From Bacteroidales bacterium (GTDB taxonomy: Bacteria > Bacteroidota > Bacteroidia > Bacteroidales > P3): a DNA stretch of 64,000 bases. Both the position numbers and the translations under genes were made by a program. Shown here in pieces: positions 1 through 27,100 of the stretch. Every line of letters starts with the position of its first letter. Within the stretch, counting starts at the first letter, position 1. The DNA lies in NCBI GenBank assembly GCA_017616895.1, contig JAFZXE010000011.1:82462-146461 (forward strand), given 5' to 3'. The notes beneath the pieces were generated by a model that did no database searches, was not told the DNA's origin, and saw only the letters and a list, made by a program, of their open reading frames with translations.

Positions 1-2
1 AC

Positions 3-356
3 GCCCGCCACGACCTGATAATAAGCGGGGTGGATAGCCTCACGAAAGCCTGCGAGGGAAAGCTGGACTTCCTGCTGGACGACTATACCCAGAAAATGAC
101 TCTCAAACTTACCGGCGCAAAAGAGGAGGAGATAAAAGAGGCCACGGACGCGATAAAGGACCTGCACGACAAACACAAGGAGATGCTCGACGGATATGTC
201 GAGAACAAGAAAAACCAGGTCGAGGAAGCCTACCAGCGCTGGCAGGAGAAACAGCAGGAGGGCGACGACCCGCAACAAGAGGAGGACAAGGCCGCCCACG
301 ACCCAGAGAAAGCCATGAAGATGAACCTGGACGACATGGAGGGAAATGTGTTTTAA
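3..356 (+). CDS. C-terminal part of an unidentified acidic helical protein (runs in from the left edge)
   Basis: The reading frame is open from the first complete codon of the window and ends at TAA 354-356, so only about 117 C-terminal residues are visible. A GTG at 30 could be a start, but nothing supports it over read-through from outside the window. The visible part is strongly charged and probably helical or coiled coil, with many Lys, Glu and Gln residues. It ends in an acidic, Gln/Glu-rich tail and the residues GNVF. There is no signal peptide or known motif in the visible part. It lies 60 nt upstream of the E1-like gene on the same strand, so it may be another component of the secretion/conjugation operon. 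I do not recognise the family. Confidence 0.6.
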   Translation, partial: ARHDLIISGVDSLTKACEGKLDFLLDDYTQKMTLKLTGAKEEEIKEATDAIKDLHDKHKEMLDGYVENKKNQVEEAYQRWQEKQQEGDDPQQEEDKAAHDPEKAMKMNLDDMEGNVF

Positions 357-416: not shown

Positions 417-1637
417 TTGGTGATTCCGCAACATAATAATTCACAACCTTGGGGCGACGACGTTTACTCTAAACTGTCGTGGTTCAGGCGCGAGCGAGTA
501 GGGTCAGCCAAAGTGATGGTGGTGGGATGCGGCGCGTTGGGCAACGAGGTGCTGAAGAATCTGGTGCTTTTCGGCGTGGAGCACCTTGTGGTCGTGGATT
601 TTGACCATGTGGAAGCTAGCAATCTGACACGTTCGATACTCTTCACACAAAAGGACGCGGAACAAGGCCGCACGAAGGTAGAGACGGTGGCGGAAAGGCT
701 GCGGGGGATAAATCCCGCTGTCGAGATTCGGCCCATCTTCGGCGATATAGCATACGACGTGGGGCTCGGGCTGCTGAGACGTATGGATGTGGTGATTGGA
801 TGTGTAGATAGCCGCTGGGGGCGATTCTGCATCAACCGCCTGTGTATGCGGGCAGGCGTGCCTTGGGTTGACGGCGGCATTGACGGGTTGGACGGCACTG
901 TGAGAGTCTTTGTGCCTGGAAGAAACTGCTACGCCTGCAACCTCGGAACGGAAGGTTTGAGAGAAATGTCGCAACGCATGTCGTGTACGGGCATTGTGCG
1001 CAGAAACGAAACGGCCGGAAGGGCTGCGACCACTCCCGTTATTGCCTCGATAATCGGGGCGGTGCAAGTGCAGGAGGCTATGAAACTGATACACAAAGAA
1101 GAATTGGAGCAAGGCCATCTAACGTCGCTCTGCGGCAAAGTGTTCCACTATGAAGGCGAGCACATGACCACCCAGACGGCCAACTTCGAGGCCTACGATG
1201 AAGACTGTCCGGAACATGAGCGCTGGGAGCCAATTCAGCAGTCGGCTGTCAGCAGTCAGCAGTCAGTGGAGGAAGCGTTGGAGATACTGGAGAATGAACT
1301 GGGTGGCGACAACGTGACCATACTGTTGCGGAACGACTGCTTTGTCGATTATGTGGAATACAGCACGACGGGAGAACAGCAGAGGGTGATGTGCCAGGGA
1401 CGTATGGTGGCGGACAAGTTGGGAGGAAAGAATGAGTCAGAAAAAATATACCAGCATGAATACAATAGTGTAGATAAGAACTTCCCCTATATAAATTTGA
1501 CCTTGCGACAGTTAGGTCTGCCCGACAACGACGTGATACATGTAAGAACCGAAAATGAAGACAAATACCTGGAACTAAAAAGAATGTGTTATTGTGTTAT
1601 TGCGTTATTGTGTTATTGCGTTAATGCGTTAATGTAG
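417..1637 (+). CDS. E1-like ubiquitin-activating enzyme (ThiF/MoeB/UBA fold)
   Basis: Likely adenylates the C-terminus of the small ubiquitin-like protein encoded downstream and passes it to the E2-like enzyme. Numbering is from the TTG at 417. The nucleotide loop GCGALG is at 37-42, an acidic residue at D61, the NLTR arginine at R72, a lysine at K87 and the aspartate of CVDSR at D131. Likely zinc ligands are C171/C174 (CYAC) and C264/H267 (CPEH). C190 in the MSCTG motif, just before the crossover segment ending in GAVQVQEAMKL, is the best thioester-cysteine candidate. Residues about 285-390 follow a Gln/Ser linker and could form a C-terminal ubiquitin-fold (UFD) domain for E2 docking; this is inferred from the pattern around 359-378. 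The start is TTG 417 or GTG 420; no ATG fits. The last 16 residues are encoded by an intergenic-type repeat. A MoeB/ThiF cofactor role is less likely given the E2 and RING neighbours. Confidence 0.85.
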   Translation: MVIPQHNNSQPWGDDVYSKLSWFRRERVGSAKVMVVGCGALGNEVLKNLVLFGVEHLVVVDFDHVEASNLTRSILFTQKDAEQGRTKVETVAERLRGINPAVEIRPIFGDIAYDVGLGLLRRMDVVIGCVDSRWGRFCINRLCMRAGVPWVDGGIDGLDGTVRVFVPGRNCYACNLGTEGLREMSQRMSCTGIVRRNETAGRAATTPVIASIIGAVQVQEAMKLIHKEELEQGHLTSLCGKVFHYEGEHMTTQTANFEAYDEDCPEHERWEPIQQSAVSSQQSVEEALEILENELGGDNVTILLRNDCFVDYVEYSTTGEQQRVMCQGRMVADKLGGKNESEKIYQHEYNSVDKNFPYINLTLRQLGLPDNDVIHVRTENEDKYLELKRMCYCVIALLCYCVNALM

Positions 1638-1643
1638 GAATGC
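1583..1643. repeat. TGTGTTATTGCGTTATTG-type short tandem repeat overlapping the E1 3' end
   Basis: Repeats of about 9-10 bp built from GTGTTATT and GCGTTAAT cover the last 16 codons of the E1-like gene and its stop. The same repeat family forms the thyA-manC spacer at 31068-31134. The codons give a Cys/Val/Leu/Ala-rich tail that is probably not functional. Confidence 0.7.
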
Positions 1644-1683
1644 GTGAATAGTGATAATTTAAGTTTTCAATTCAACAAATACC

Positions 1684-2463
1684 TTGAAACAATACGAAAT
1701 AAATGAAATCGGAGCGGAGATGCTGCTCAACCGGCTCTATCCAGAAATGGAAGACAAGTGGATAGCGCGGTGCGAGGGCACTTTCTACCGGAACTATATG
1801 GGCGACCATATCTCAGTGTATGATGAAAGCGACGAGGTGGTACTTTCGCGTGACGGCTTTATCAGTCTGCTGCCCGACGGACTTCTTTCTGGCGAAGAAG
1901 ACCTGAGAGGCGGCAACTTCGCCGACAAATACAAGAAGCTGACCCAGCGGATGAAACTTTACAAGGAAGCATTTCTGCCAATAGACACCTTTGCATTCCG
2001 CCAAAGGCTTCATATTGAACGGATGACCTCCGCACTGCTGGAAAACAAGCTCGCCTACCTTCTGAAATCCATCTGGAACTACGACATCGAGGCCGAAACG
2101 AACCCTTACGTACGCGAAGTGGCCGTCATGCTGCCCTATATCAGCAAGATGAGAGCCGATTTGCGCAGTATTGCCAAATTGCTCGGCTCTCTCTTTAACT
2201 GTCGCGCCATGATGAAGACGGGACGCTATAGCCACGAGGACAGCACTAGATATTGGATACCCAGCGTGGAATACCAACTGCTCATTCCCGACCTCAGCGC
2301 CGAACAATACAAAAAACTCAAGGCCGACATCGAGCCTTTGCAGGCTTTCCTGTCCGAATGGCTCATCCCCGCCGAGATGAGATGCGAGATAACCATAAAA
2401 CACCACCGCCAACCGCAAAAGGTCGGTGATGGGTTGATGCTGGATTATAATAGTGAATTGTGA
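1684..2463 (+). CDS. Probable T6SS baseplate protein, TssG-like
   Basis: A 259-residue cytoplasmic-looking protein without signal peptide or membrane segments. It sits between the E1-like gene and tssK in a run that also contains tssE and tssF, where the missing baseplate subunit would be TssG. The segment at about 100-170 (rich in Leu, Arg and Tyr) and a C-terminal part of short beta-like stretches are compatible with TssG, but I see no diagnostic motif, so the call rests mainly on context. The start codon is TTG at 1684; an in-frame stop lies at 1660-1662 and the first in-frame ATG would remove about 12 residues. The last codons run into the GTGAATT repeat array, so the natural C-terminus may have been slightly altered. 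TssG would form the wedge with TssE and TssF. Confidence 0.45.
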   Translation: MKQYEINEIGAEMLLNRLYPEMEDKWIARCEGTFYRNYMGDHISVYDESDEVVLSRDGFISLLPDGLLSGEEDLRGGNFADKYKKLTQRMKLYKEAFLPIDTFAFRQRLHIERMTSALLENKLAYLLKSIWNYDIEAETNPYVREVAVMLPYISKMRADLRSIAKLLGSLFNCRAMMKTGRYSHEDSTRYWIPSVEYQLLIPDLSAEQYKKLKADIEPLQAFLSEWLIPAEMRCEITIKHHRQPQKVGDGLMLDYNSEL

Positions 2464-2542
2464 ATTGTGAATTGTGAATAGTGAAAGTGTGAATTGTGAA
2501 TTGTGAAATAGTGAATTGTGAAATTGTGAAATTGTGAAATTG
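2452..2542. repeat. GTGAATT/GTGAAATT heptamer-octamer repeat array
   Basis: About twelve head-to-tail copies of GTGAATT, some as GTGAAATT or GTGAATA, fill the spacer between the TssG-like gene and tssK and include the final codons of the former. A short related stretch in the opposite orientation (ATTCACA) lies at 45111-45135. No promoter or terminator is visible within it. Confidence 0.85.
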
Positions 2543-2565
2543 ACAAGAATACAAACAAACACAAA

Positions 2566-3717
2566 ATGGATATAAATTCGAGAATCAACTGGAGCTCCGG
2601 AATGGAACTCACCACCGAGACCTTTGCCGGGATGGACCAACACATCGATTTCCAGCAACGCGTCGCCATTCAGGCCGCTTTGGGGGGACAACGCGTAGGC
2701 ATATTGCCCGAAGTGCCCTTCAATAACAGCGGGGTCTTTGTGAAGAACTGTTTCGAGATGGAACATTTCAGGTGCATGGCTCTTCTTGCGTCGGGCAGGA
2801 TTGTGGATGTGGACGAACCTGTGACTGTGACTATTCCGAGGCTCTTTGGCGACTGCTACTATCTTACCGTCGGCTTCGGTGAAGGACAGGCTGAGTATGA
2901 ACGGGAGGGTGTTCCTTACAAAAGGCCCAACTACCGATTCACTCTGAACACCATGGAGGAGATTGAGAACAACGACCTGCTGCCGGTGGTGCGTTTCAAG
3001 GCAAACGAGGGCGTTTTCTCGGTCGATACAGACTTCATCCCCCCCACGTTGCAACTTGTCTGCGACCAACGATTCAAGCCATACATAGACCGCTATGTTG
3101 AACAGATGACCAGCATTGCGACACACGAGCACCTGACCGACGAGTTCGGCAAACGAGCCATGCTACACTACCTTTTCATCCTGAAGAGCTACAGCATGAG
3201 TATGGCCACTACCAATTTCATCCTTTTCACTCAGGAGCTTGCACAGGCAATAAACTATTACATACACTCACTCAATCCACAAAGCGGGCTGACAGCCGAA
3301 ATACCCGAGCCCAACCAGTATGACATTGAAAAGTGGTTGAAATGGCTCGAAGAGTACATGAACAGCGCTGTTTCGGTACTCGACAACGTGGAGCCCAAGG
3401 ACGACACGATTGACTATGAACTGCTGAAAGCACAGATAAAGGCGGAGCTGTATGAGACGATAAAACCCGAACTGCACGACCAAATGCTACCAGAAATTAA
3501 GGAACAATTGAGTCAGGAACTGGAGCAGAAACTGGCCGAGACGCTGAAGGAAAAACTAGAATACACTCTGAAGCCTCAACTGTACAGCCAACTGCGTCAG
3601 GAACTGTCAGACGACCTCTTCCAGCAGTTGTTCGACACCCTTTACGAAGCTCTATACAAAGCCTTGTTTGTACCGGTGGAAAAAGAGGAAGAAAACGAAT
3701 TCGTACCAATGATATGA
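2566..3717 (+). CDS. tssK: T6SS baseplate protein TssK
   Basis: TssK links the T6SS baseplate wedge to the envelope complex. The protein is 383 residues, somewhat shorter than typical proteobacterial TssK of about 440. The N-terminus has the family signature of a tryptophan followed by a GM motif and a phenylalanine/glutamine block: W9, GM at 12-13, and DFQQR at about 28-32. This recalls the W..GM...PQHFQ pattern of TssK. The middle is a mixed beta/helical domain and the last 100 residues (from about 275) are a Gln/Glu/Leu-rich helical stretch with a repeated QLxxEL pattern, probably coiled coil, ending EFVPMI. The ATG at 2566 is the first in frame. tssE follows after 56 nt. TssK is not found in extracellular contractile injection particles, which favours a T6SS over those systems. 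Divergence is expected for the Bacteroidota-type T6SS. Confidence 0.62.
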   Translation: MDINSRINWSSGMELTTETFAGMDQHIDFQQRVAIQAALGGQRVGILPEVPFNNSGVFVKNCFEMEHFRCMALLASGRIVDVDEPVTVTIPRLFGDCYYLTVGFGEGQAEYEREGVPYKRPNYRFTLNTMEEIENNDLLPVVRFKANEGVFSVDTDFIPPTLQLVCDQRFKPYIDRYVEQMTSIATHEHLTDEFGKRAMLHYLFILKSYSMSMATTNFILFTQELAQAINYYIHSLNPQSGLTAEIPEPNQYDIEKWLKWLEEYMNSAVSVLDNVEPKDDTIDYELLKAQIKAELYETIKPELHDQMLPEIKEQLSQELEQKLAETLKEKLEYTLKPQLYSQLRQELSDDLFQQLFDTLYEALYKALFVPVEKEEENEFVPMI

Positions 3718-3768
3718 AGATTAGTTCCAAGTTCTAAGTTTTTAGTTTCAAGTTTTTAGTATCAATTC
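3718..3768. repeat. AAGTTTTTAGTTTC-type short repeat spacer
   Basis: The tssK-tssE spacer contains three imperfect copies of an approximately 12-14 bp unit (AAGTTCTAAGTTTTTAGTTTC and variants). It is the same T-rich family as the spacer at 357-416. Confidence 0.65.
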
Positions 3769-3773
3769 TACCG

Positions 3774-4244
3774 ATGATATCAATTCCTCTACAGATAACA
3801 CCCAAAGGATTTCTTCGTGACGAAACAGTCGAGGATAGTATCGGCCACTCGATAGAGCTTCTGATGCAGACGCCGCTGTATGGATGCAAGGCCGACCCAC
3901 ATTATGGGTTTGTGTTCAAGAACCTGAGATTCGAGATATTCAACGAGAACGAAGGTACAGTCAACGACGGATTGGCGCCAAACACCGAACAAATACAGGC
4001 TATCAAAAACAGCGGCGGCAAAGATCTTTACAAGATAAAGGTTTCGGGCACGTCAAAGAACATCAACACTTTCGCCACCGAACTACAAAAAGCAATAATC
4101 AAGTATGAACCACGGCTCGGCAACATAAGCGTGAGCCTCTCGTACGTGAGAGAAGAGAAAATGATATATGTGAGCGTGAAAGGTTCTATAATAGAAAGCA
4201 ACACTCCTTACAAATATGAAACGACGATAAAGATATGGAATTGA
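3774..4244 (+). CDS. tssE: T6SS baseplate wedge protein TssE (gp25/GPW family)
   Basis: A 156-residue member of the phage gp25/TssE lysozyme-like family, which initiates sheath polymerisation at the baseplate. The signature is in the first 60 residues: a DSIxxSIELLMxTP segment (about 23-38) followed by a GFVFKNLRFEIFN segment (about 49-61). These match the family pattern in which an initial helix with conserved Ser/Ile is followed by a G-x-(3)-x-L-x-F-E/D block. The remainder is alternating strands and helices, ending in a basic strand. Length fits the family (about 130-170). It starts at ATG 3774, 56 nt after tssK, and tssF follows after 55 nt. gp25 proteins also occur in phage tails and extracellular contractile systems; the neighbouring TssK and TssF make T6SS the better reading. 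Confidence 0.75.
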   Translation: MISIPLQITPKGFLRDETVEDSIGHSIELLMQTPLYGCKADPHYGFVFKNLRFEIFNENEGTVNDGLAPNTEQIQAIKNSGGKDLYKIKVSGTSKNINTFATELQKAIIKYEPRLGNISVSLSYVREEKMIYVSVKGSIIESNTPYKYETTIKIWN

Positions 4245-4299
4245 GTCCTTTCTTTTAGTTTCACTTTTCGTTTCAACATTCAACTTTCAATGCAATAAA

Positions 4300-6000
4300 A
4301 TGAATATTTTTGAGACAAGGCAACGTGCACAAGAGCTGCTAAGCGATGCAATAAAGATTTGGCGGCAAAGTCCGCAAAACGAAGCCCTGGAAGGGATGGA
4401 AAACGATGCTGTCATGAATCTGCTGATGACAGCCCTTGCCTTCCAGATGAACGATGCCGACAACGAGATAGAACGCCTGAAGGAGGAAGTGGTGTCCGAG
4501 TATATGCGGATGCTGACTCCATACGAGATGGGGCACGCTGTGCCAGCTTCGGCTGTGGTGGAGGTCTCGTTAAACCGAAATATACCCGAATGGGATGTGG
4601 ATACAGGCAGCATCTTCAAAATGTCGGGTACGCAATACGAGTTTATGCCAATTCTGCACACGCGTGTTATTGGCGGTTACGTCAAGTCGGTTACCCGGTT
4701 AGACGGCAGACGCTGGAACGTGACATTGGCGTTCAATTCGCCGGTTCGTAATCTTTCGGGCTTCTCATTCGCCGTGAAAAATATGTTATTCCATGACCTA
4801 AAGGTTTCCTACAAAGGGGTATATCTGCCTTTGGTCCGGCCATGGGACTATGCCCAACTGCCACTTTCCAAGTGTTTCTCGCTCGACACATCGCTCTATA
4901 ACGACTCTCGGGTTTATGACGCATCTATGGTTGCTATGGACATTTTTGCCAAGCAAAACGTCAGGATGTACTGTGTGAAGAACCACGATGCATCGCGCTA
5001 TATGCCCGACGAAATGGATGAAGTGAACCTTGTGTTTGAGTTTGCTGGTCTCGCAAAGAATTTCATATTCGACAAGAAACAGTTGTCTATCAACAGTGTT
5101 CTTTTGGCCGAAGCACAACTGAACCTCACCACGCTTTCGAGTGAATATCCAATGACCCGAGTTGCCGGAAGCGATATGGATGCCGGCTGTCAGTTTTTAC
5201 ACTTGGTGCGCCCATCGGAAGAGCAAATTTACACGAAGGAACGGGTGGAAGTGAGACGCGTTATGGGAGACCGCTTCAATCAGGGTAGCCTGTTACGCCT
5301 GCTTTCGAGCCTTATAAACAAATACAACACCGATTTCTACGCTTTTCAGAGCAACAAAGCCCTGTCTGACGACGGCACTATACACACATTGCAAGATATT
5401 CTATCGAGACTTATGAGCGTCTGTCAGAGTGACAAGCAGCAAAGTCTTGAAGGTGTGTATCTGTTGCTACACAGCGACACCATCGGTTCGGGCAGCAAAC
5501 TCTCAACGGAGGTACGCTACCTTACCACACACGGCGCTGCCGTCAACAGCTTGCTTTCGACAAGCTCGTCGTTCGAGATTCCTGCTCCGTTTGACGGCAC
5601 AAGTGTACGTCCAATAACCGACCCGATGCCAGGTCTTGATGAAATCGGCGACAAGGCGTGTGAAGAAAGCTTGATGCGCTACCACGTCATCACTAACGAC
5701 CGCATTGTTACGCCGGCCGACATAAAGACTTTTTGCTACAACGAGTTAATGACACGATACAGCATCGACCGCACGATGGTGAAAAGTCTAGATGTAAGCC
5801 GACGTATTCAGCAGGACCCTCACGGGTGCGGTTACGAGATAGTTGCCGAAATAGTGCTCGCCGCCACTTCCACTGTGAAACGCAGTTTCGAAGAGAAAAT
5901 ACCATACGTTGAACAGTTGCTTCAGAAGATGATGGAGGTGAGAAGTTCGGGCGTTTATCCAATTATGGTCAATATCGTGGTCGAGGGAAGTAATCAATAG
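4300..6000 (+). CDS. tssF: T6SS baseplate protein TssF
   Basis: A 566-residue baseplate wedge subunit that, with TssG and TssE, forms the T6SS baseplate. The N-terminal 90 residues are helical and acidic, ending in a YMRMLTPYEMGHAVPA segment that matches the TssF pattern of a conserved proline-rich turn following the first helices. Beta-rich domains follow. Near the C-terminus the segment NDRIVTPADIKTFCYNELMT (about 464-483) is the family's conserved Arg-x-Val-Thr-x-x-Asp motif, shared with baseplate J-type proteins. Length agrees with TssF (about 580-620). There is no signal peptide. It begins at ATG 4300 and is followed after 59 nt by the ubiquitin-like gene, so baseplate and conjugation genes are directly adjacent. 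Confidence 0.75.
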   Translation: MNIFETRQRAQELLSDAIKIWRQSPQNEALEGMENDAVMNLLMTALAFQMNDADNEIERLKEEVVSEYMRMLTPYEMGHAVPASAVVEVSLNRNIPEWDVDTGSIFKMSGTQYEFMPILHTRVIGGYVKSVTRLDGRRWNVTLAFNSPVRNLSGFSFAVKNMLFHDLKVSYKGVYLPLVRPWDYAQLPLSKCFSLDTSLYNDSRVYDASMVAMDIFAKQNVRMYCVKNHDASRYMPDEMDEVNLVFEFAGLAKNFIFDKKQLSINSVLLAEAQLNLTTLSSEYPMTRVAGSDMDAGCQFLHLVRPSEEQIYTKERVEVRRVMGDRFNQGSLLRLLSSLINKYNTDFYAFQSNKALSDDGTIHTLQDILSRLMSVCQSDKQQSLEGVYLLLHSDTIGSGSKLSTEVRYLTTHGAAVNSLLSTSSSFEIPAPFDGTSVRPITDPMPGLDEIGDKACEESLMRYHVITNDRIVTPADIKTFCYNELMTRYSIDRTMVKSLDVSRRIQQDPHGCGYEIVAEIVLAATSTVKRSFEEKIPYVEQLLQKMMEVRSSGVYPIMVNIVVEGSNQ

Positions 6001-6059
6001 CAACAAATTAATGTTTGAAGATTGTACCAAAAGATAACAACATCACAATATAACACAAT

Positions 6060-6377
6060 ATGGAAGATTTCTTTCTGAACATCGTTTACAAGAACAAGAC
6101 AGTGAAATTCCGCGTAGCCAATCCCGAGGCGCCGTTGGGGACGCTGCTAACAAACTTGCGTCACGCAATCGGCAACGATGGCAAACTCATTTTCGACTTT
6201 CCGTCGATAGACTCGACAGGAGCCCCTCTTGACTATTTCTTCGCAAAAGAGGACTCTGCAGTGCATGAGTTGCGTGTTATGCGCCCCCGCATCGGCAATG
6301 CCGAACAGACCTTGGCTGACTACAATGTCCAAAACGGAGATACGGTTTCATTAATTCCAGATCCGTTTCCGGGTTGA
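6060..6377 (+). CDS. Ubiquitin-like protein (beta-grasp, YukD-like) ending in glycine
   Basis: A 105-residue protein that is probably the modifier conjugated by the neighbouring E1 and E2. It opens with a strand, FFLNIVYKNKTVKFRV, followed by a helix around a conserved-looking LGTLLTNLRHAIG segment and further strands. It closes with LADYNVQNGDTVSLIPDPFPG, where the phrase around NGDTVSLI is typical of ubiquitin/YukD-type beta-grasp domains. The C-terminus is a single glycine directly before TGA at 6375-6377, so no tail needs removing before adenylation. It lacks the usual double glycine; the sequence is Pro-Gly. An insertion around residues 45-75 makes it longer than ubiquitin. It lies between tssF (59 nt) and the E2-like gene (70 nt). 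The fold call is by pattern only. Confidence 0.72.
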   Translation: MEDFFLNIVYKNKTVKFRVANPEAPLGTLLTNLRHAIGNDGKLIFDFPSIDSTGAPLDYFFAKEDSAVHELRVMRPRIGNAEQTLADYNVQNGDTVSLIPDPFPG

Positions 6378-6447
6378 TGCCACAGATGGTGGCCATAGAT
6401 ACACAGGAGGTCAGGATAGTTTAGTAAAAGATATTTTATAATAACTA

Positions 6448-7017
6448 ATGCAAATCAAGGATTTCGATATAACCAAGTTCACCGGTCGCAACCGACGGCT
6501 GCTCTACGAGTGGCAGAAGTTGGAGTATGCCTGCCAAAACCGTGATTTCAAAATCGAAATTATTGACACGAACACCTTCGGTTTGCCAACAAGTTATCTT
6601 GTAGTTTATAATATTCACAGCATCTGCGGTGTCACCAACATCGACCAGCTTAACCAGGCCGGGGTTGTGAATGAACCGATTTTCGCCGACAGTTTCAGTA
6701 TGCGAATCGACCTCCCCGAAAACTACCCGTGTGTGGATGGCAGTCCCCAGTTCCGTTTCCTAACTACTGATGCTAATGGCAATGCACTAGAGCATCCTTG
6801 GCATCCGAATATCCGTTGGGCTGGCAGTTTCGCAGGACGTGTATGTGTCAATATGGCAGACACCTATACTGATTTAGTCTGGGGGGTTGAGCGTGTTGCC
6901 GGCTACCTGAGGTATGAGTGCTATCATGCACTTCCTGAACCTCCATACCCAGAGGACCAGTCGGTTGCAGCTTGGGTAATCAGACAGGCCGAACCAAACG
7001 GATGGATACCCTTTTGA
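6448..7017 (+). CDS. E2-like ubiquitin-conjugating enzyme (UBC fold)
   Basis: A 189-residue UBC-fold enzyme predicted to take the ubiquitin-like protein from the E1 and deliver it to targets. The layout follows the fold: an N-terminal helix (about 14-30) with basic and aromatic residues, strands through 35-60 and 80-106, and the H119-P120-N121 motif. C133 in GRVCVN lies 12 residues after N121 and is the expected thioester cysteine; N121 would be the oxyanion-hole asparagine. After it comes a tryptophan region (W145) and helices with Y153/L154, then a PYPED turn and a final helix with AAWV, matching the post-catalytic part of E2-like proteins. These features distinguish it from non-catalytic UBC relatives. 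It starts at ATG 6448. An eukaryotic-type W-P at the usual place is missing. It is among the firmest calls in the conjugation set. Confidence 0.85.
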   Translation: MQIKDFDITKFTGRNRRLLYEWQKLEYACQNRDFKIEIIDTNTFGLPTSYLVVYNIHSICGVTNIDQLNQAGVVNEPIFADSFSMRIDLPENYPCVDGSPQFRFLTTDANGNALEHPWHPNIRWAGSFAGRVCVNMADTYTDLVWGVERVAGYLRYECYHALPEPPYPEDQSVAAWVIRQAEPNGWIPF

Positions 7018-7084
7018 GTCTTTTGTTTCAAGTTTTTAGCCCATTGAAAATAATACATACTTTAATGTACGTCTGTCAAGAAAA

Positions 7085-8248
7085 ATGAAACGCATGAAAA
7101 TATTCAATTTAACCGTTGCAATTATGGTTTCGTTACTGAACGTCTCAATGATGCAAGCACAAACCACCAAAAACATCTCCGTATCAGATAATGAATCATA
7201 CACGGACCATATTGCCTTGAGTAACGACACTAAGGATATGGACTTGATGGTTAAGTTTGTGTTTAACGAAGAAAAAAACACTCTAACCGTCAGTCTTATT
7301 TCGTACAGGACACTTTTTGTTTTCTGGGACAACGCAAGATACAAGAAAGCGATAAAACACCGTCGCATAAAACCAGATAATCTGCCATACGTGGTGAGCA
7401 GCAATCCTGGCGACCAGTTCAGAGTTACCCGAACATTCCGCAAGACCATTCCCAAACCCCGCCGAAAACAAATTCTCAAAAAGTGGATAGAAGTGAGCGG
7501 ACTTCAACCTATCGATAAAGAATTGATGATGGTGAACGACTTTATCGAACAGACGTTTGACATACAGGGAAAACTCGGCGTAGTAACTGTTCGGTTGCGC
7601 GATGTTATGCTCCTCGACGAGGTTAAGAAAAAATCTTCGTCAAGCCGCTATGACATAACATACGGAAGAGACCTGAACATAACCTACAAGGTGTCCCTAC
7701 AGCGTAACCCATGCTTCGGTCTTGACGAAGAGATTGCGTCTTCAGCCAACTCACTTGAAGCAATAAGTAAGAGTTATGCCACACTGCGTAAAACGGCAGA
7801 TAAAGTATCAAACGATGAGAGCCACAAGGTTTTTATTGATATGAAGGCGACACTGATAGAACAGTTCCCCAAGAATACCACTGCAAGCCGATGCGCTGAT
7901 ATCCAACAGTCTCGTGACAAGTACAACCAAATAGTTGACTCCATACAGGCACTTGATACAAAAATTGACGCTGTGGCGGCATCCGGTGCGGCTGGGCCAA
8001 TGGTCGATGGTGGAGGATTAAATGCCAGGGAAATACTATCCAATGCCCGTATATTGGACAATACTGTCTCGCGGTGGCTTGCCAGCCGTGATCCCGCCGA
8101 GCGTGCCGACTTGGTGGCTCAGGGTCGCAGTATCATAAAGGACATAAACACTCTGATAAGCGGCAGATATGGACAGACCAGCGAAGAAAAAAATGCAATT
8201 ACGGTTTTCCGCAAGGCTGAAAAATATTTCAACAAAGTATGCAAATAA
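7085..8248 (+). CDS. Exported protein of unknown family in the T6SS/ubiquitin-like operon
   Basis: A 387-residue protein with a Sec signal peptide (MKRMKIFN start, hydrophobic core to about residue 24, cleavage near MQA-QTT). The first part of the mature chain (about 30-215) looks beta-rich with a basic patch (TFRKTIPKPRRKQILKK), and the second part (about 220-387) is helical with Gln/Asp/Ser-rich segments and a glycine/alanine-rich break (AASGAAGPMVDGGG) near 300. Two ATGs (7085 and 7097) would each give a signal peptide. It starts 67 nt after the E2-like gene and its last codons overlap the next gene. I do not recognise the family. Bacteroidota T6SSs lack TssJLM and use other envelope proteins, so a role as a periplasmic component is a reasonable inference, not shown by the sequence. 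Confidence 0.7.
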   Translation: MKRMKIFNLTVAIMVSLLNVSMMQAQTTKNISVSDNESYTDHIALSNDTKDMDLMVKFVFNEEKNTLTVSLISYRTLFVFWDNARYKKAIKHRRIKPDNLPYVVSSNPGDQFRVTRTFRKTIPKPRRKQILKKWIEVSGLQPIDKELMMVNDFIEQTFDIQGKLGVVTVRLRDVMLLDEVKKKSSSSRYDITYGRDLNITYKVSLQRNPCFGLDEEIASSANSLEAISKSYATLRKTADKVSNDESHKVFIDMKATLIEQFPKNTTASRCADIQQSRDKYNQIVDSIQALDTKIDAVAASGAAGPMVDGGGLNAREILSNARILDNTVSRWLASRDPAERADLVAQGRSIIKDINTLISGRYGQTSEEKNAITVFRKAEKYFNKVCK

Positions 8249-9156
8249 GATATAAAAAGCATGGGCTCTTGATGGTCAGGTTGAAACTGGTGGTGGTTTT
8301 TATCATCTCCCTGTTTTTTAATATTCAATCAGACACCGTTTCTGCTCAGGATGAATCTATGATAGATCCGTTCCGCGAGCAGCAGTTGTCAGGTCGTATG
8401 ATTCAATTCATCGACGATTTCAATCGCCTATACACTTCCGATGGTATGCGTTTTGGCCGTGCCATGTCCGATTTTGAATCAGCGACCCATGTTCAGGTTG
8501 TCGGACAGAAGATACGAATGTTGAATAATAGTTTTCAGTCACTTGATTTCAGGTGGAATGCATTTGTACAGTCCGAGCAAGTCGAAATCGCCGAGAGTGA
8601 AGAACTTATGGATTTGATGACAAAGGTTCAGCAGCTTAAACAGGCTGTTGGCGACAGTATAGCGGCTCAGCAGAACAAGTGCGACGCAGTGGCTGACTTT
8701 ATTGAAGCTGAGCGCTATCTTGCCTCTCAGGACACCATATACAAGGAGCTCTATAAGAAGGCGCGGAATCTTTCTTTAGTTAAACAGTTGGCCCCTCAGC
8801 TGGAAAAAGTAAAAAATGAGGAAAAATCGGCATTTGAGAAGATAGAAACAAGCTATGGCAAATCAAGAGAGGCTGCGCAGCTCATACCGCAACTGAATAC
8901 TCGCGCTGACTGTTTAGAAGAGCGGTACTTGGCACTAAAGTCTATTTCCGGCAAAATCCAGGCAATGGAGTACAAGCCTTTAATAGAACGAGCCAAGGAC
9001 TACCTGATGGGATTGGCATGTGTGTCGGTGATTCTCATATTTTTCAATATGATCGTAACAAAAATTAAAGCAGCAAAAAAAGCCCGCGAGATGCTGAAAA
9101 AACAGAAAGAGCTGCTCTCAAGAAACAACAATAACAGTGAATATCCCACGATATAA
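8239..9156 (+). CDS. Exported coiled-coil protein with a C-terminal membrane anchor, unknown family
   Basis: A 305-residue protein with an N-terminal hydrophobic segment reading as a signal peptide (RLKLVVVFIISLFFNIQ, end near SAQ), a long helical ectodomain (about 40-250) full of Gln, Glu and Ala heptad-like stretches, one membrane segment (MGLACVSVILIFFNMIV, about 258-274) and a short very basic cytoplasmic tail (KAAKKAREMLKKQKELL). The predicted topology is periplasmic ectodomain and cytoplasmic tail. ATG 8239 overlaps the preceding gene by 10 nt; ATG 8272 gives a more usual signal-peptide length and may be the true start. The overlap suggests translational coupling. No known motif was found. 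It may bridge the periplasm and the inner membrane in the secretion machine; that is inference from topology and neighbours. Confidence 0.7.
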   Translation: MQIRYKKHGLLMVRLKLVVVFIISLFFNIQSDTVSAQDESMIDPFREQQLSGRMIQFIDDFNRLYTSDGMRFGRAMSDFESATHVQVVGQKIRMLNNSFQSLDFRWNAFVQSEQVEIAESEELMDLMTKVQQLKQAVGDSIAAQQNKCDAVADFIEAERYLASQDTIYKELYKKARNLSLVKQLAPQLEKVKNEEKSAFEKIETSYGKSREAAQLIPQLNTRADCLEERYLALKSISGKIQAMEYKPLIERAKDYLMGLACVSVILIFFNMIVTKIKAAKKAREMLKKQKELLSRNNNNSEYPTI

Positions 9157-9229
9157 TAATATGGTGAAGGATTCCTTAATCACAGGAAATTCAATTGACA
9201 ACTAATTCTGACAATCAAACAATAACGCA

Positions 9230-11578
9230 ATGTCAATACGAATCTTACTATCCAGAATCGCAATAGTATTCAGTTTGGTCTGTGTCACAGCGTGTGGCAA
9301 GTTCGACAAAACTTTGGACGACAACGTTGATCCCGATATTCTTTCTCATCTGTTTGAAAAAAAGGATGAGAAAATCAAAGTTGTGGACGTTGAATTTGCG
9401 ACCGACTATAAAACATTCACAGTCTCCACTGATGTCGAGCATGATGTAGGCTATCACGAACTCAAGGATTCAACAAAAGTCCGTGTGGAGGTCAAGGAAA
9501 CCATTGAAGGTGTTGGAATGGCCAGATTCACAACCCCTCGTTTAAAAGAAATAAAAAACATTGAGGCAGAAAGTGTTTCTCAACTGGGTATAAAAATGCT
9601 GGTTTTAATAGACCGTACACTTCCTCAATCAAATCTTGATGCACTACGGTCTCTTGTATTGGAGATGAAAACCACCTTTACTGGAGACAATTTGTATGTC
9701 GCCTTTATGGATAGCAATAGCGTATCCGAATCTATGTTGGCTTCCGATTATGTGCTTGACAATTATTTTGTCAAGTCTCGCTCTAATCATGTGTGCCTAT
9801 ACAGGTCGATACTCCAGAAGAGCCAAGAAATGTTGCAGAGAGATAATTGTTGGATGGATGCCACAAAACTGGTTTTGCTCACTTTCTCAAATGAAAAAGT
9901 CTATCAAGACGGCAGTGACGAACCTCTTGATCCGAACCATTTCCTGTTCCAAGAGCAACTGACAGACAGGGATTTTGAACTTGACGACACGTCGTTTGTC
10001 GCCTACTACGCCAGTATGAACACCTTGCAAAACGGAGATGACGATTATGCAAAAAACATTCTGCGCATTTTTTGTACAAACACAGGTGGTCAATATATCG
10101 ACAATTTCAACTGGGTGTCATTTAAACGTGACATGTACCGAACCCTGAATATTATCACCCCAGACAATGAGTTTCTATTTGAGAACCCAGACAACAAAGT
10201 CTATCGAGGCGACAATAAACGGCTGATGGTCAGCTTCTATGATATTAAAGCCGACACCCTTATGGCATCGTTCACGGCTTCTATCAACAAAGGAGAGATG
10301 TTCGATCCGATAATAGTCAACGAACAACCATTTCACCATATCATCATTCAAGGCATCATACTTGGAATATTCCTTATAGCTTTAGTTTATCTTGCTATAC
10401 AAATAATAGTTCCATTCGTCTCGTATTGCATTTTTCGCCGCAGGTATGTCGTAAAATACACTGGACGTGGCATGTGTTTTGACAGCAAGCCTGTTGGAGA
10501 GTGCTGTTATCTATGCAAAGCACCTTTTGAAAAAGGCGATGATATTGTTGTCAAGTGTGAGCACACTACACACAAAACTTGTTGGGATGAAAACTCGTAC
10601 CACTGCCCTGAATACAGCGACCGCTGCAAACATGGCTCGCACTACTACAATGTTCACAAAATCCATGACCCACGGAATGCCCCTTATTACCTGAAATGGC
10701 TTTTGGTTGCCATCGCAGCATCGGTATTTTCTTGGCTGATTTTCCTTATGTATGTGCATTTTGACTACTATTCAAACCTTTACCCCTTCGCTCATTCTTC
10801 AGTCACCCAGCCCCCATTCCTCGGTCTTTCCATTGCTTTTTTCCTTACGTTAGGGCTCTCGGCCCTTGCATTGCGTCGCAGGACAAACATTCGTGCTGCG
10901 CTTTCTGTGACTCTTCGCGCTGTTATCGCTGCCGTAGGATGCTATCTTTCGTTCATGGTCATCAACTTGATTATCTTCATTTTCAACATCAATAATTATA
11001 CTTTTCTAATCAATTGGATACCTTGGACTTTGTCGGGATTTATTATTGCTGCATGCACCACCTTCGCCACAAGCATACGTCACAGCCGTTGGATTCTTCT
11101 GGCAAGCGTATTGGTCGGATTTCTGTCCATGTATGCCTGGAACACTCTTTTCTGCTTCTTCGAACTTGACTTCAGGCTCTTCACTCTTCTAAGTTTTGTC
11201 ATATACTGTATAGGTCTTGCCCTGGCCATCGCCGTTGCTGCCCCTCGTTCCGAACGCTATTTCTTAAAGGTTCAAGGGGCTGTCAAAACTATGGATATCG
11301 CCCTCTACAAATGGTTCCGCAACAATCCAGACCGTGTTGTGACGATAGGCAAATCTGTTGATTGCTCTCTGCAGCTTTCGTGGGACCTACAAGGCGAAGT
11401 CGCTCCTGTGCAGGCCGAGATACGTATGCGCAAACGTTCTCCATACCTCATCCCTATTGAGCCCGGTGTATATATGCGCGGCAAAAAACTCCGTGTAAAC
11501 AAAAAATACCGTCTCTTCCACGGACGTACCTTCACTATCGGCCAAACAAATTTCACCTACGTTGAAAAAGACCGTTAA
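9230..11578 (+). CDS. Membrane RING-finger-like protein with lipobox, VWA-like and FHA-like domains (candidate E3)
   Basis: A 782-residue multidomain protein. The N-terminus has a lipobox VTAC (C22) after a hydrophobic segment. A VWA-like domain spans about 120-310: strand IKMLVLID with D128, and a later TKLVLLTFS strand, but a poor metal motif. The first membrane segment lies at about 372-400 and is followed by FRRRYVVKY, placing the next part in the cytoplasm. The zinc motif there is C426-x2-C429-x13-C443-x-H445-x2-H448-x2-C451-x7-C459-x6-C466, a RING-H2 pattern with an irregular last pair. About six membrane segments follow (488-670), returning the C-terminus to the cytoplasm, where 700-778 resembles an FHA domain (IGKSVDCSLQL) without the usual Arg/Ser/His pocket. 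Together with E1, E2 and Ubl genes it is a candidate membrane-bound E3 or scaffold. It ends the operon. Confidence 0.8.
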   Translation: MSIRILLSRIAIVFSLVCVTACGKFDKTLDDNVDPDILSHLFEKKDEKIKVVDVEFATDYKTFTVSTDVEHDVGYHELKDSTKVRVEVKETIEGVGMARFTTPRLKEIKNIEAESVSQLGIKMLVLIDRTLPQSNLDALRSLVLEMKTTFTGDNLYVAFMDSNSVSESMLASDYVLDNYFVKSRSNHVCLYRSILQKSQEMLQRDNCWMDATKLVLLTFSNEKVYQDGSDEPLDPNHFLFQEQLTDRDFELDDTSFVAYYASMNTLQNGDDDYAKNILRIFCTNTGGQYIDNFNWVSFKRDMYRTLNIITPDNEFLFENPDNKVYRGDNKRLMVSFYDIKADTLMASFTASINKGEMFDPIIVNEQPFHHIIIQGIILGIFLIALVYLAIQIIVPFVSYCIFRRRYVVKYTGRGMCFDSKPVGECCYLCKAPFEKGDDIVVKCEHTTHKTCWDENSYHCPEYSDRCKHGSHYYNVHKIHDPRNAPYYLKWLLVAIAASVFSWLIFLMYVHFDYYSNLYPFAHSSVTQPPFLGLSIAFFLTLGLSALALRRRTNIRAALSVTLRAVIAAVGCYLSFMVINLIIFIFNINNYTFLINWIPWTLSGFIIAACTTFATSIRHSRWILLASVLVGFLSMYAWNTLFCFFELDFRLFTLLSFVIYCIGLALAIAVAAPRSERYFLKVQGAVKTMDIALYKWFRNNPDRVVTIGKSVDCSLQLSWDLQGEVAPVQAEIRMRKRSPYLIPIEPGVYMRGKKLRVNKKYRLFHGRTFTIGQTNFTYVEKDR

Positions 11579-24134: not shown

Positions 24135-27100
24135 ATGAAGAAGATACTGGTTATGGCGGCGGCGCTGCTGCTGGGAGTAAACATATATGCGCAGAAGAAA
24201 CCTGTGGCTGTGAACTTCACGTTTGAGAACCTGCCGGCAGAACTTTTGATGTACCTGGACCAGGCAACGAGCCAGGACGACCGCAAAAAAGCCAACGCTA
24301 AACTGATACAGACATTCGAGCCAATCTATAAGGGTTGGGACGAGAAGACACAGATAGAATACCGCGACATCTGCGTGACGATGCAGAAGCTGAGGGTGAA
24401 ACAGTTTCCCGACTTCGCACACTTCATAGAGGTCACGACGCTGATGAGCACGAAGGGTAAGGCGAACTTCGGAGCGTGGGTGAAGTGCCTGACATACCTG
24501 CAGGAGAGAAACAAGAAAGTGAAAGACTTCACGGACTTTGTGGATTTCACGGAACAGCTGGAGGCGGAGAGGACGCTGAACGGTGCGAAGACGTCGCTGT
24601 GGCAGGCGCAGGCAGGGGCGCAATACACGCTGAAGCTGGAGGGGAAGAACATCGTGGTGGAGTTTCCGAAGAAGATGGAGCTGTACTACAGTTCGGACAA
24701 GGACAACGGGACGATATACGGCACGACGGGCAAGTACTACTATTTTGACCACAAATGGTATGGTCACGGAGGCCGCCTAAACTGGGACAGAACGGGGCTG
24801 CCGACGACGGTGTGCTGGGCGGAGCTGAAGGACTACGAGGCGGTGACGAAATTCCCGAAGTTCAACGCAGACTCGGTACTTTTCACCAACACAAAATACT
24901 TCACCACGCCGATATACGGGCGTGTGGAAGAGGCGCTATCGGCACAGATGGAGCCTGAGAAATACACTTTCCCGAAGTTCCGTTCGTATCAGAAAGACTT
25001 CGAGATGAAGAACATCGTGGAGGGAGTAGATTACTCGGGCAGCTTTATGATGAACGGAGCAAAGTTCATCACGTCTGACACGAAGCACCCGGCGTCGCTG
25101 CTATTCCGTAGGAACGGGAAGGTGTTTGCGAAGGTGCAGTCGGTGAAGTTCACCATCACGAGCAAGCAGATAGCGTCGGAAAGGGCGTCGGTGAGGTTGT
25201 ATCTGGGAGAGGACTCGATATACAACGACGGAGTGCTGGTGAGGTATAGCGTAGGAGAACGGACTGTGACCTTTGTGAACGACTCGAAGCGAAACTTCTA
25301 CAGTCCCTACGGCGACAGCTACCACAACATGGACCTGTTCAGCGAGTCGATAGTATGGAAGATGGACAAGGACGAGTTGGAGTTCTCGATGATAAGCTCG
25401 GGAGGGCAGAACTTCTCGTCGTTTGAGTCGGCCAACTACTATTCGTATGCCCGCTACCGCCAGATACAGGGCATCGAGGAGATGAGCCCAGCCATGAGGG
25501 TCTATCGTTATATGAGAGACCACGGCATGACATACGAGTTCAAGATAGACGACTTCGCGAGGTCGATAAGCATGGATGTGAGCCAGGCGCGGCTGATGAT
25601 GCACACGCTGGCGAGGTACGGCCTTGTGACCTACAACGAGGCGCTTGACAGGACTTACGTGCAGGACAAGCTGGTCGATTACGCCAGGGCATACAGCAAA
25701 GACAAGAAGCACGACTATGACGCGCTGATGATGGAGTCGGCCACGAAGGGCAGCAACGCGACGCTGGACTTGAACACGTTCGACTTGAAGGTACGGGGAG
25801 TGGAGAAATTCGTGGTGAGCGACAGCCAGGCGGTGGCCATCTCGCCCAGAGGCGATGTGACGGTACACAAGAACAGAGACATCACCTTCTCGGGGAAGGT
25901 AAACATAGGGCGGTTTGTGATGTATGTGAGCGACGCCACGTTCTTCTACGAGAAGTTCAGTCTGGACCTGCCGAAGATAGACTCGCTGTACTTCTTCGTG
26001 ACCGATTTCAAAGACCCAGCGAAGGAGCATATAGTATATACGCCGCTGTACAAGCTGGTGGGAGAAATTCAGATAGACAAGCCCGACAACCACAACGGAT
26101 TGACGAAGAACAAGGAGTTCCCGATATTCGACAGCAAGGAGAAGAGCTATGTCTATTACGACCGCCCGTTCATAGAGAAGGGGGTGTATGACCGCAACAA
26201 GTTCTACTACACGCTGCGTCCATTCACACTAAGGAGCCTGTCGGACTTTCCGACGGACAGCCTGGTGCTGAACGGGTCGCTGACGTCGGCAGGTATATTC
26301 CCAGAGATAGACGAGCCACTGAAGGTGCAGCCCGACTACTCGCTGGGCTTCGTGATAAAGACCGGCAAGACAGGCATGCCGGCATACGGCGGCAAGGGGA
26401 CATACCACAACACTATAGACCTGAGCTACAAAGGACTGCGGGGACGCGGGCAGCTGGACTACCTGACGACGGTGACAAGGTCGAAGAACATAATGTTCCA
26501 CCCCGACTCGATGATGGCGGTGACGGACACTTTCTATGTGACCGAAGCAGGCGGATTCCCGGACATAAGGAACGGCAAGACCAACGAGCGGTGGTACCCC
26601 TACGGCGACTCGATGAGGGTGGCGCAGATAAAGAACGGCACCCAGTTCAGGATGTATCACGACGACGCAACGCTGGCCGGACATGTGACGATAAAGCCCA
26701 GCGGTGCGACTGGAGGCGGAGTGGCAACCATCAAGGAAGGCACGCTGGCATCGAACCGGTTTGAGCTGAAACCGATGGACATGAACTCACAGGTGACGGA
26801 ATTCACGTTGAGGTCGCTGAAGTACAACTCTATCGCATTCCATGCGCTGAACATGAAGTCGCATGTGGATTACAAGAAACGCACCGCCGAGTTTACGTCG
26901 AACTCGCCGATAGAACGGACAGAGCTGCCGGTGATGAACTACGCCGCATACGTCGATAGATTTACCTGGGGGATAGACCAGCAGCAGCTGGCGCTGTCGA
27001 ACAGCAAGAGCACCACATCGCAAGGCATGGAGAGCAAGCCGCTGCGCGACAGAGTGGATGTAGATGTGATGCCAGGAGCGACGTTTGTAAGCACAGGCAG

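Follow-up and report, generated by a model that had tools for sequence, protein, structure and literature searches.

Bacterial operons that combine an E1-like adenylating enzyme, an E2-like conjugating enzyme and a ubiquitin-like protein (Ubl) are discussed, in the accessible parts of the literature, chiefly in connection with defence against phages or as forerunners of the eukaryotic ubiquitin system. A 64,000-nucleotide stretch of a Bacteroidales genome (G000:C23:82462-146461; hereafter the window) contains genes of this kind at positions 417..11578, interleaved with genes for the baseplate of a type VI secretion system (T6SS), and it was analysed together with the 30 kb before its start (the upstream region; 94 kb in all). 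As predicted from its genes, this is a T6SSiii-like system in which neither TssN nor TssR is detectable and whose baseplate operon holds the components of a Ubl conjugation cascade. That the T6SS and Ubl conjugation genes form a real integrated system is practically certain.

The T6SSiii of Bacteroidota has a TssNQOPR membrane complex (PMC10781749, accessible part). Its likeness to the window machine lies in TssC and Hcp, which match PF17541 and PF17642, in homologs of TssF, TssG, TssK and TssE, and in a ClpB/ClpV-type ATPase, VgrG and PAAR-like genes that are present in both. In contrast, the window cluster has no TssN or TssR by profile, its TssG and TssK genes are adjacent, and genes for E1, Ubl, E2 and a protein with RING, VWA-like and FHA domains (the module) lie in the baseplate operon. 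The E1-E2-Ubl-JAB operons of Iyer et al. (2006, PMC1779556) likewise have a Ubl with C-terminal Gly, an E1, an E2 and a RING-type protein, and JAB is present in divergent relatives of the window locus. However, the accessible part of that paper distinguishes five types, nearly all with JAB, and names no secretion or tail genes for them, whereas no JAB was found in 11 window-type loci and their genes are interleaved with the T6SS baseplate. BilABCD shares E1, E2 and Ubl with the window, and JAB with its relatives, but BilA has two Ubl domains according to the accessible part of its description (PMC11354881), only the E1 weakly matches BilD here, and the setting is another. The Ub-like TAPI, with its C-terminal Gly, and the JAB protein TAPK act in Lambda/T1 tail assembly (PMC1779556), but in its accessible part no E1, E2 or RING is named with them, and the setting is a phage tail, not a secretion system. 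Literature on T6SS or contractile injection systems combined with ubiquitin-like terms held no description of such a system among the matches listed. Burroughs et al. in 2011 (RING families) or a 2024 article in Nature on bacterial ubiquitination may describe parts of it. The enzymes belong to a familiar general type, and the machine is related to one already described; it is their integration that looks new.

Conjugation Enzymes and Ubiquitin-Like Protein

Ten open reading frames (ORFs) occupy 417..11578, all on the + strand, in the order E1, TssG, TssK, TssE, TssF, Ubl, E2, X387, X305 and RING/FHA protein; the order, strand and coordinates that a first-pass annotation of this DNA had given for them were borne out. 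The E1-like adenylating enzyme (417..1637, 406 aa; TTG start at 417, a GTG at 420 being equally possible) matched PF00899 at 2.9e-53. Its C190, which we take to be the catalytic cysteine by analogy with MoeB/UbaA-type E1s, was invariant in all 19 alignment rows (L023 and L030 are without E1). The E2-like conjugating enzyme (6448..7017) matched UQ_con at 1.4e-4 (21.9 bits, under the cut-off of 27), and its family profile found eukaryotic E2s among PDB chains (best 7.3e-7). The cysteine of its HPNI...GRVC segment (C133) was invariant in all 21 rows, which comprised the window and L019-L038. The YukD/ubiquitin-like Ubl (6060..6377, 105 aa) was weak when taken alone (ubiquitin 0.052, YukD 0.068), but at E<=0.1 its family matched ubiquitin in 15 of 20 members (best 1.8e-5) and YukD in 12 of 20 (best 2.8e-9). 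It ends in an exposed Pro-Gly, the glycine of which (G105) was invariant in 20 of 20 rows; the near-duplicate L026 was omitted, and L020 was trimmed of an upstream ORF extension. Two further carriers, G649 and G619, were in none of the three alignments. The E1, UBC and beta-grasp folds that had been claimed for these proteins were thus recovered, and the sequences predict the features of a Ubl conjugation cascade, namely an E1 fold with its cysteine, an E2 fold with its active cysteine and a C-terminal Ubl glycine. Ubl conjugation itself, and its target, are inferred.

The best NCBIfam matches of the E1 are ThiF/MoeB, which would suit a sulfur-carrier pair of E1 and Ubl, or a merely structural Ubl with vestigial enzymes, but the invariance of all three residues makes such an explanation highly improbable. 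Carriage by phages, plasmids or viral contigs was rejected on the search results: no plasmid matched the E2, nor did viral contigs hold a confirmed relative of it, and for the E1 there were 20 matching phage records, in none of which coverage reached 80% in a single place. The best 10 of these 20 reached at most 84 bits, and the annotated ones were ThiF/MoeB or hypothetical.

Baseplate and Membrane Proteins of the Operon

Window TssG (1684..2463) and TssF (4300..6000) had no supporting Pfam or NCBIfam match on their own, and their family profiles matched no PDB chain. When the baseplate family profiles were run on ORFs of eight ordinary T6SSiii loci (20-kb stretches; E-values are for those ORFs only), counterparts were found in seven of the eight loci for both TssF (best 2.4e-25) and TssG (best 1.1e-22), so that the identities first proposed are upheld. 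The same search recovered TssK (2566..3717) in all eight loci (5.1e-12) and TssE (3774..4244) in seven (1.2e-9). The latter, a gp25-like baseplate protein, also matched PF04965 (GPW_gp25) at 5.7e-9. TssK matched TIGR03353 at 1.9e-8 (33.9 bits, under the cut-off of 100), and hhalign gave 98.6% against canonical TssK over residues 6-235. The match ends near 235, beyond which there is a helical-looking tail ending EFVPMI.

X305 (8239..9156), as read from its sequence, has a signal, a coiled-coil-like region, a C-terminal transmembrane (TM) segment and a short tail ending EYPTI; it weakly matched one 156-aa ORF in L065 (1.5e-5). TssK and X305 share a C-terminal peptide in the window and in L020-L030, F-x-P-x-I in TssK and [YIL]-P-[TS]-I in X305. 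A P-x-I end was present in 9/10 TssK and 10/11 X305 proteins vs. 0/8 canonical TssK. Only 18 of 403 ORFs in 18 regions ended in this way, and 15 of the 18 were TssK or X305 (window TssK was left out of this count by an overlap filter). The P-x-I of the two proteins looks like a common docking tail.

X387 (7085..8248) is predicted to be exported from a signal read from its sequence. Its AlphaFold 2 model (pLDDT 84.0, pTM 0.57) comprised a beta domain and a helical domain, and no PDB fold matched it at E<=0.001. The RING/FHA membrane protein (9230..11578, 782 aa) has an N-terminal signal, a VWA-like domain, a TM segment, a RING, a multi-helix bundle and an FHA domain. It had been annotated as a RING-like membrane protein, and this holds in so far as Prok-RING_1 (PF14446) matched at 0.0013 (19.1 bits, under the cut-off of 29.1); the VWA-like and FHA domains are additional, the latter above cut-off (1.5e-5). 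Among 18 family members, 5 matched Prok-RING_1, 7 zf-RING_2, 12 FHA and 6 VWA at E<=0.01. The AlphaFold model (pLDDT 77.9, pTM 0.58) runs from a VWA-like region through a single long helix and the RING region to six further long helices and the FHA region. Foldseek placed an archaeal ArnA/ArnB complex at the top, with a low TM-score, and then FHA domains (including that of the type III secretion system protein YscD) and VWA domains. X305 and RING are joined in one 1074-aa ORF in L027 (11736-14960), which is either a genuine fusion or, this being a metagenome-assembled genome (MAG), the result of a missing stop codon. This fusion and the shared P-x-I of TssK and X305 suggest physical links. In the compact Parabacteroides distasonis cluster, an evident N-terminal signal was seen by eye, from ClpV to the end of the operon, only in X387, X305 and the RING protein.

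Distribution and Co-Inheritance

A genome scan with the E2 alignment yielded 20 loci (L019-L038), 12 of which (L019-L030) are Bacteroidales by title and context. These are mostly MAGs, with yak rumen, sheep omasum, horse faeces and water-buffalo caecum among the sources in their titles, and include one isolate, P. distasonis An897. The other eight are titled Saprospiraceae, Lewinella, Portibacter, Chitinophagales or Bacteroidetes bacterium. The full order E1-TssG-TssK-TssE-TssF-Ubl-E2-X387-X305-RING was found in nine loci (window, L021, L022 and L024-L029), that of P. distasonis An897 among them. Gaps range from -83 to +102 nt, and E1 and TssG overlap by 4 nt in five of the nine, both measured from mechanical ORF starts. 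The contig fragments L023 and L030 are consistent with this order as far as their sequence goes, except that L023 has a PEGA-like ORF separating TssF from Ubl. L019 and L020 carry JAB and have the order Ubl-E2-(X387-/X305-like, weak)-JAB-RING-OMP-like-E1-TssG-TssK, and TssE-TssF come after TssK in the genome of L019.

A profile sample of 139 genomes of the order yielded two carriers besides the genome of the window. G649, from another family, has one run of ClpV-TssB-TssC-Hcp-VgrG, an ORF, and Ubl-E2-ORF-JAB-RING-OMP-like-E1-TssG-TssK-TssE-TssF, and no TssN was recognised in the 40 kb read. The other, G619, is discussed below. The module is therefore rare in the order (3/139), as it is among 190 genomes of the family and 395 of a phylum sample, three carriers in each (single-sequence query); all three counts include the window's genome. 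Pairwise distances of E1/Ubl/E2/RING and TssG/TssK/TssE/TssF were correlated across eight loci (Mantel r 0.85-0.97, permutation p <=0.002; L026 was dropped as a near-duplicate), which indicates that enzymes and baseplate genes are co-inherited. The gene order of the nine complete loci, the overlaps and this co-inheritance agree with the earlier description of one interleaved operon, a claim that depended on the order being seen elsewhere in Bacteroidota. Two neighbouring operons are rejected on the strength of the same order in nine complete loci, which also makes a misassembly unlikely.

Upstream Half of the T6SS Cluster

A T6SSiii-like cluster has its remaining genes on the same strand in the upstream region, and the window operon forms its second half. 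The ClpB/ClpV-type ATPase (L003:7862-10084) scores ClpB models above ClpV and is named ClpV by position. A 154-aa ORF without Pfam match is called TssB from its size, position and homology to ORFs in the TssB position. TssC matched PF17541 at 3.8e-102. There are three Hcp-family genes, the two scanned of which matched PF17642 (1.1e-31 and 2.2e-6), and two VgrG genes (1411 and 1450 aa), the first found by scan and the second by its similarity to the first. Other upstream ORFs encode a DUF4280 PAAR-like protein (7e-34), a PEGA-domain protein, a 261-aa lipoprotein-like product and two mutually similar proteins of about 597 aa with no convincing family match. Together with the window, the upstream region therefore holds the T6SSiii phage-like core of TssB, C, D, E, F, G, H, I and K (TssB and the ATPase partly by position). 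Of the genes that the first-pass annotation had suggested for this region, sheath, Hcp, VgrG and a ClpB/ClpV-type ATPase were found; JAB was not, in 94 kb.

TssN, TssR and the Membrane Complex

TssC (PF17541) was present in one copy each in 12 of 13 Bacteroidales module genomes (window, L019-L029) and was not found in that of L030. TssN (PF17555) was found in none of the 13, hence in none of the 12 with TssC, and TssR (PF17643) in none of the 13 either. In the phylum sample of 395 genomes, TssC was found in 25, including the window's, and TssN was above cut-off in 22 of the 24 others (Fisher 7e-8 for the absence of TssN against this control, relatedness not corrected); none of these 24 had an E2 match (single-sequence query). 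The two control genomes without TssN were G212, the TssC of which is weak, and G540; G280 is TssC-negative with a TssN match above cut-off.

According to the accessible part of PMC10781749, TssN consists of a TM bundle and a cytoplasmic domain of ubiquitin fold and interacts with TssK, tssN lies systematically between tssK and tssG in T6SSiii, and TssR is absent or unidentifiable in 31% of known systems. TssG and TssK are adjacent in the window operon, with no tssN between. The same part of that paper reports that no homologs of the T6SSiii membrane complex were detected outside T6SS loci. PF17643 was found in five of the eight non-Bacteroidales module genomes. A TssR homolog at L055:3472-5994 (Portibacter, G253) matched PF17643 and PF20782 above cut-off and PF20780 just below it, and this genome has an extracellular contractile injection system (eCIS) and no PF17541 TssC. 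G540 (G540:C1:334152-357800; L058, L059) has a different kind of T6SS, in which TssG adjoins TssK, and kinase-like and FHA-like ORFs, assigned by eye, lie upstream of the ClpV-type gene.

JAB and Maturation of the Ubl

The JAMM pattern of JAB proteins (HxHP...S..D) was found in L019, L020, L031-L033, L035-L038, L085 (G649) and L086 (G619). No such pattern occurred in the 94 kb of window and upstream region, in L021-L030 or in the truncated gene of L034, which was counted as JAB-bearing by homology. PF14464, a weak model for the JAB of the relatives, which match PF01398, had no match in the window's genome. The Ubl ends exactly at its glycine in 11 of 11 loci without JAB, whereas residues follow it in 7 of 12 JAB-bearing loci (GAK, GFNA, GID, GTH, GGK, GK and GYLVV; Fisher 0.0046, with related loci and with L023 and L030 being fragments). 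This is suggestive of a maturation protease that may have been lost once the Ubl tail was no longer encoded.

Relatives Outside the Bacteroidales Operon

In Portibacter marinus (L035, G253), genes in the order nSTAND-E1-Ubl-E2-JAB-RING are divergent from PAAR, a 1766-aa ORF and an eCIS with gp25, spike, CIS_tube, gp19 tube, sheath and Pvc16 genes. The eCIS marker Pvc16_N was found in seven of eight non-Bacteroidales module genomes vs. 76 of 395 in the phylum sample (Fisher 7e-5, two Portibacter removed from the sample, relatedness not corrected). It lies on the contig of the module in six genomes, 12-53 kb away, with contigs paired on the basis of their length and the remaining eCIS genes having been checked in P. 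marinus only. The window machine differs from an eCIS of PVC/AFP type in having TssK, PF17541 TssC and PF17642 Hcp, and its genome is without Pvc16_N. In the Chitinophagales locus L033, about 12 kb separate the module from a T6SS that retains TssN and has its ClpV end nearest the module. The contig of L034 is too short for its setting to be seen; TssC, TssN and Pvc16_N are on other contigs of its genome. The module is thus mostly found in the company of contractile injection systems, which are of two kinds, and it is most integrated in Bacteroidales. The one clear exception is G619 (Bacteroidales), in which no T6SS or eCIS gene was recognised on the whole 43-kb contig carrying E1-Ubl-E2-JAB-RING.

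The company of tail-tip genes suggests that the Ubl could be attached to the tip or its cargo (VgrG, PAAR or PAAR-linked effectors) and control tip loading or assembly in T6SS and eCIS alike. Besides the P. marinus arrangement, four of the eight non-Bacteroidales loci (L031, L035, L036 and L037) have PAAR-like or toxin-like ORFs no farther than 10 kb away, and in the window cluster u242, the gene before E1, and E1 itself come after VgrG and PAAR-like genes. This explanation deserves attention but is on the unlikely side, since in Bacteroidales the genes of the enzymes are interspersed with those of the baseplate, and the E3-like protein, which has a VWA-like domain, is bound to the membrane.

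A ClpB/ClpV-type ATPase that, like that of the window, scores ClpB above ClpV adjoins E1 in L034, and the FHA domain of the RING protein would make a phospho-switch possible. Both points would fit a cascade that tags mis-assembled or spent machine parts for removal. Such quality control is improbable: no Ubl-recognising protease was recognised among the operon ORFs (no search was aimed at one), and it would need no dedicated module in just a few T6SSs.

Bil systems act on phage tails, and an anti-phage Ubl system, of Bil type or other, might sit in a T6SS locus by chance. The E1 matched the E1-E2 models of PADLOC (best 2e-17) and weakly BilD (6.8e-7, 26.3 bits), and the G619 module is away from recognised injection genes. 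On the other hand, window Ubl, E2 and RING and the JAB of G057 matched no PADLOC model, no CD-NTase was found among the 20 window and upstream proteins scanned, and interleaving and co-inheritance in nine loci argue for a tie to the machine. A defence system by chance of position is accordingly held to be distinctly improbable.

Proposed Role of Ubl Conjugation

On the best reading, contractile injection systems are what Ubl conjugation serves, and in Bacteroidales it has become an integral part. It is probable that the module acts on the injection machine; action specifically at docking or firing is possible, at somewhat less than even chances. Transfer from E1 to E2 and then onward with the help of a RING protein is the established order of ubiquitin-type cascades. 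Here, the E1 would adenylate the exposed C-terminal glycine of the Ubl and hand the Ubl to the E2 cysteine, and the RING/VWA/FHA membrane protein would be the E3 at the assembly site and, with X305 and X387, may also form the membrane complex. The Ubl would be placed on the cytoplasmic face of the machine, on the tail of TssK, the tail of X305 or the RING protein itself. A target on the baseplate-facing side is suggested by the interleaving, by the missing TssN and altered TssK tail, and by the X305-RING fusion and the P-x-I common to TssK and X305. The attached Ubl may then supply the ubiquitin-fold contact that the fixed domain of TssN gives in other T6SSiii, so that docking or firing would depend on conjugation; in relatives, the JAB protein would mature or remove the Ubl. 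The strongest form of this proposal, in which conjugation is an obligatory assembly or firing step, free Ubl took over the docking role of TssN via the membrane RING ligase, and the ancestral module controls eCIS particles, is rather unlikely when taken in full.

Several observations weigh against this reading. The T6SS of G540 has no detectable TssN and yet no E2 match, and the alignment of Ubl with TssN by hhalign was co-linear but weak (E 0.03, probability 1.7%) and is not used as proof. TssO, TssP and TssQ had no match above cut-off among the 20 proteins scanned, but too-diverged copies may exist. In P. distasonis, a possible signal is also seen on an 850-aa ORF upstream of ClpV, and other exported ORFs of the window cluster (PEGA-domain and lipoprotein-like) could be parts of the membrane complex. 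Some RING zinc ligands are absent in two Portibacter relatives that were aligned. The TssK of G649 is near the canonical kind (189 bits) and is without a P-x-I end. The module and the eCIS marker share a contig in six relatives, and the T6SS near L033 keeps TssN, so that replacement of TssN cannot be the general role of the module; with G649 and G619, these cases tell against a pure TssN-replacement role. Because of the G619 contig without an injection gene and the canonical-like TssK of G649, our estimates for the link to the machine, for docking and for the strongest form of the proposal were lowered, and that for defence was raised.

If it is true that a cascade fixed in a secretion-machine operon, and near injection systems in several Bacteroidota lineages, serves these systems, Ubl conjugation would take part in the construction or triggering of a nanomachine. 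In some gut bacteria, a harpoon-like weapon may be built, docked or fired with the help of protein tagging akin to our own ubiquitin system. The module would also mark a T6SS subtype without the usual TssN membrane anchor, which touches on the reason for the ubiquitin fold of TssN, and the system is accessible in a cultured isolate (P. distasonis An897).

Flanking and Accessory Genes

The 3' end of u242 occupies 1..356 of the window on the + strand; the gene encodes 242 aa and starts 370 nt upstream of the window (L004:9631). It has homologs in L022 and L025-L029 and adjoins VgrG/PAAR-like genes in relatives. Short intergenic tandem-like repeats occur at 1586-1640 and 2460-2545 (tgttattgcgtt... 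and gtgaattgtgaatt...), and they extend into the C-terminus of E1, giving the window protein a tail not seen in relatives.

In G619 (L086-L088, G619:C685), E1-Ubl-E2-JAB-RING is followed by a run of repeated-looking ORFs, and the contig has at least two Ubl-like ORFs and a second JAB-like ORF (24939-25793). A channel-like membrane ORF of 297-324 aa comes after RING in L032 and L035-L038 (L035:15363-16268; cut short in L038), and the Portibacter pair has two further membrane ORFs. An ORF of 447-479 aa is common to the Portibacter eCIS region (L015:909-2348, - strand) and the L033-linked T6SS (G598:C4:120089-121432; 261 bits); it also occurs in L032 and L036 and perhaps encodes a common accessory protein.

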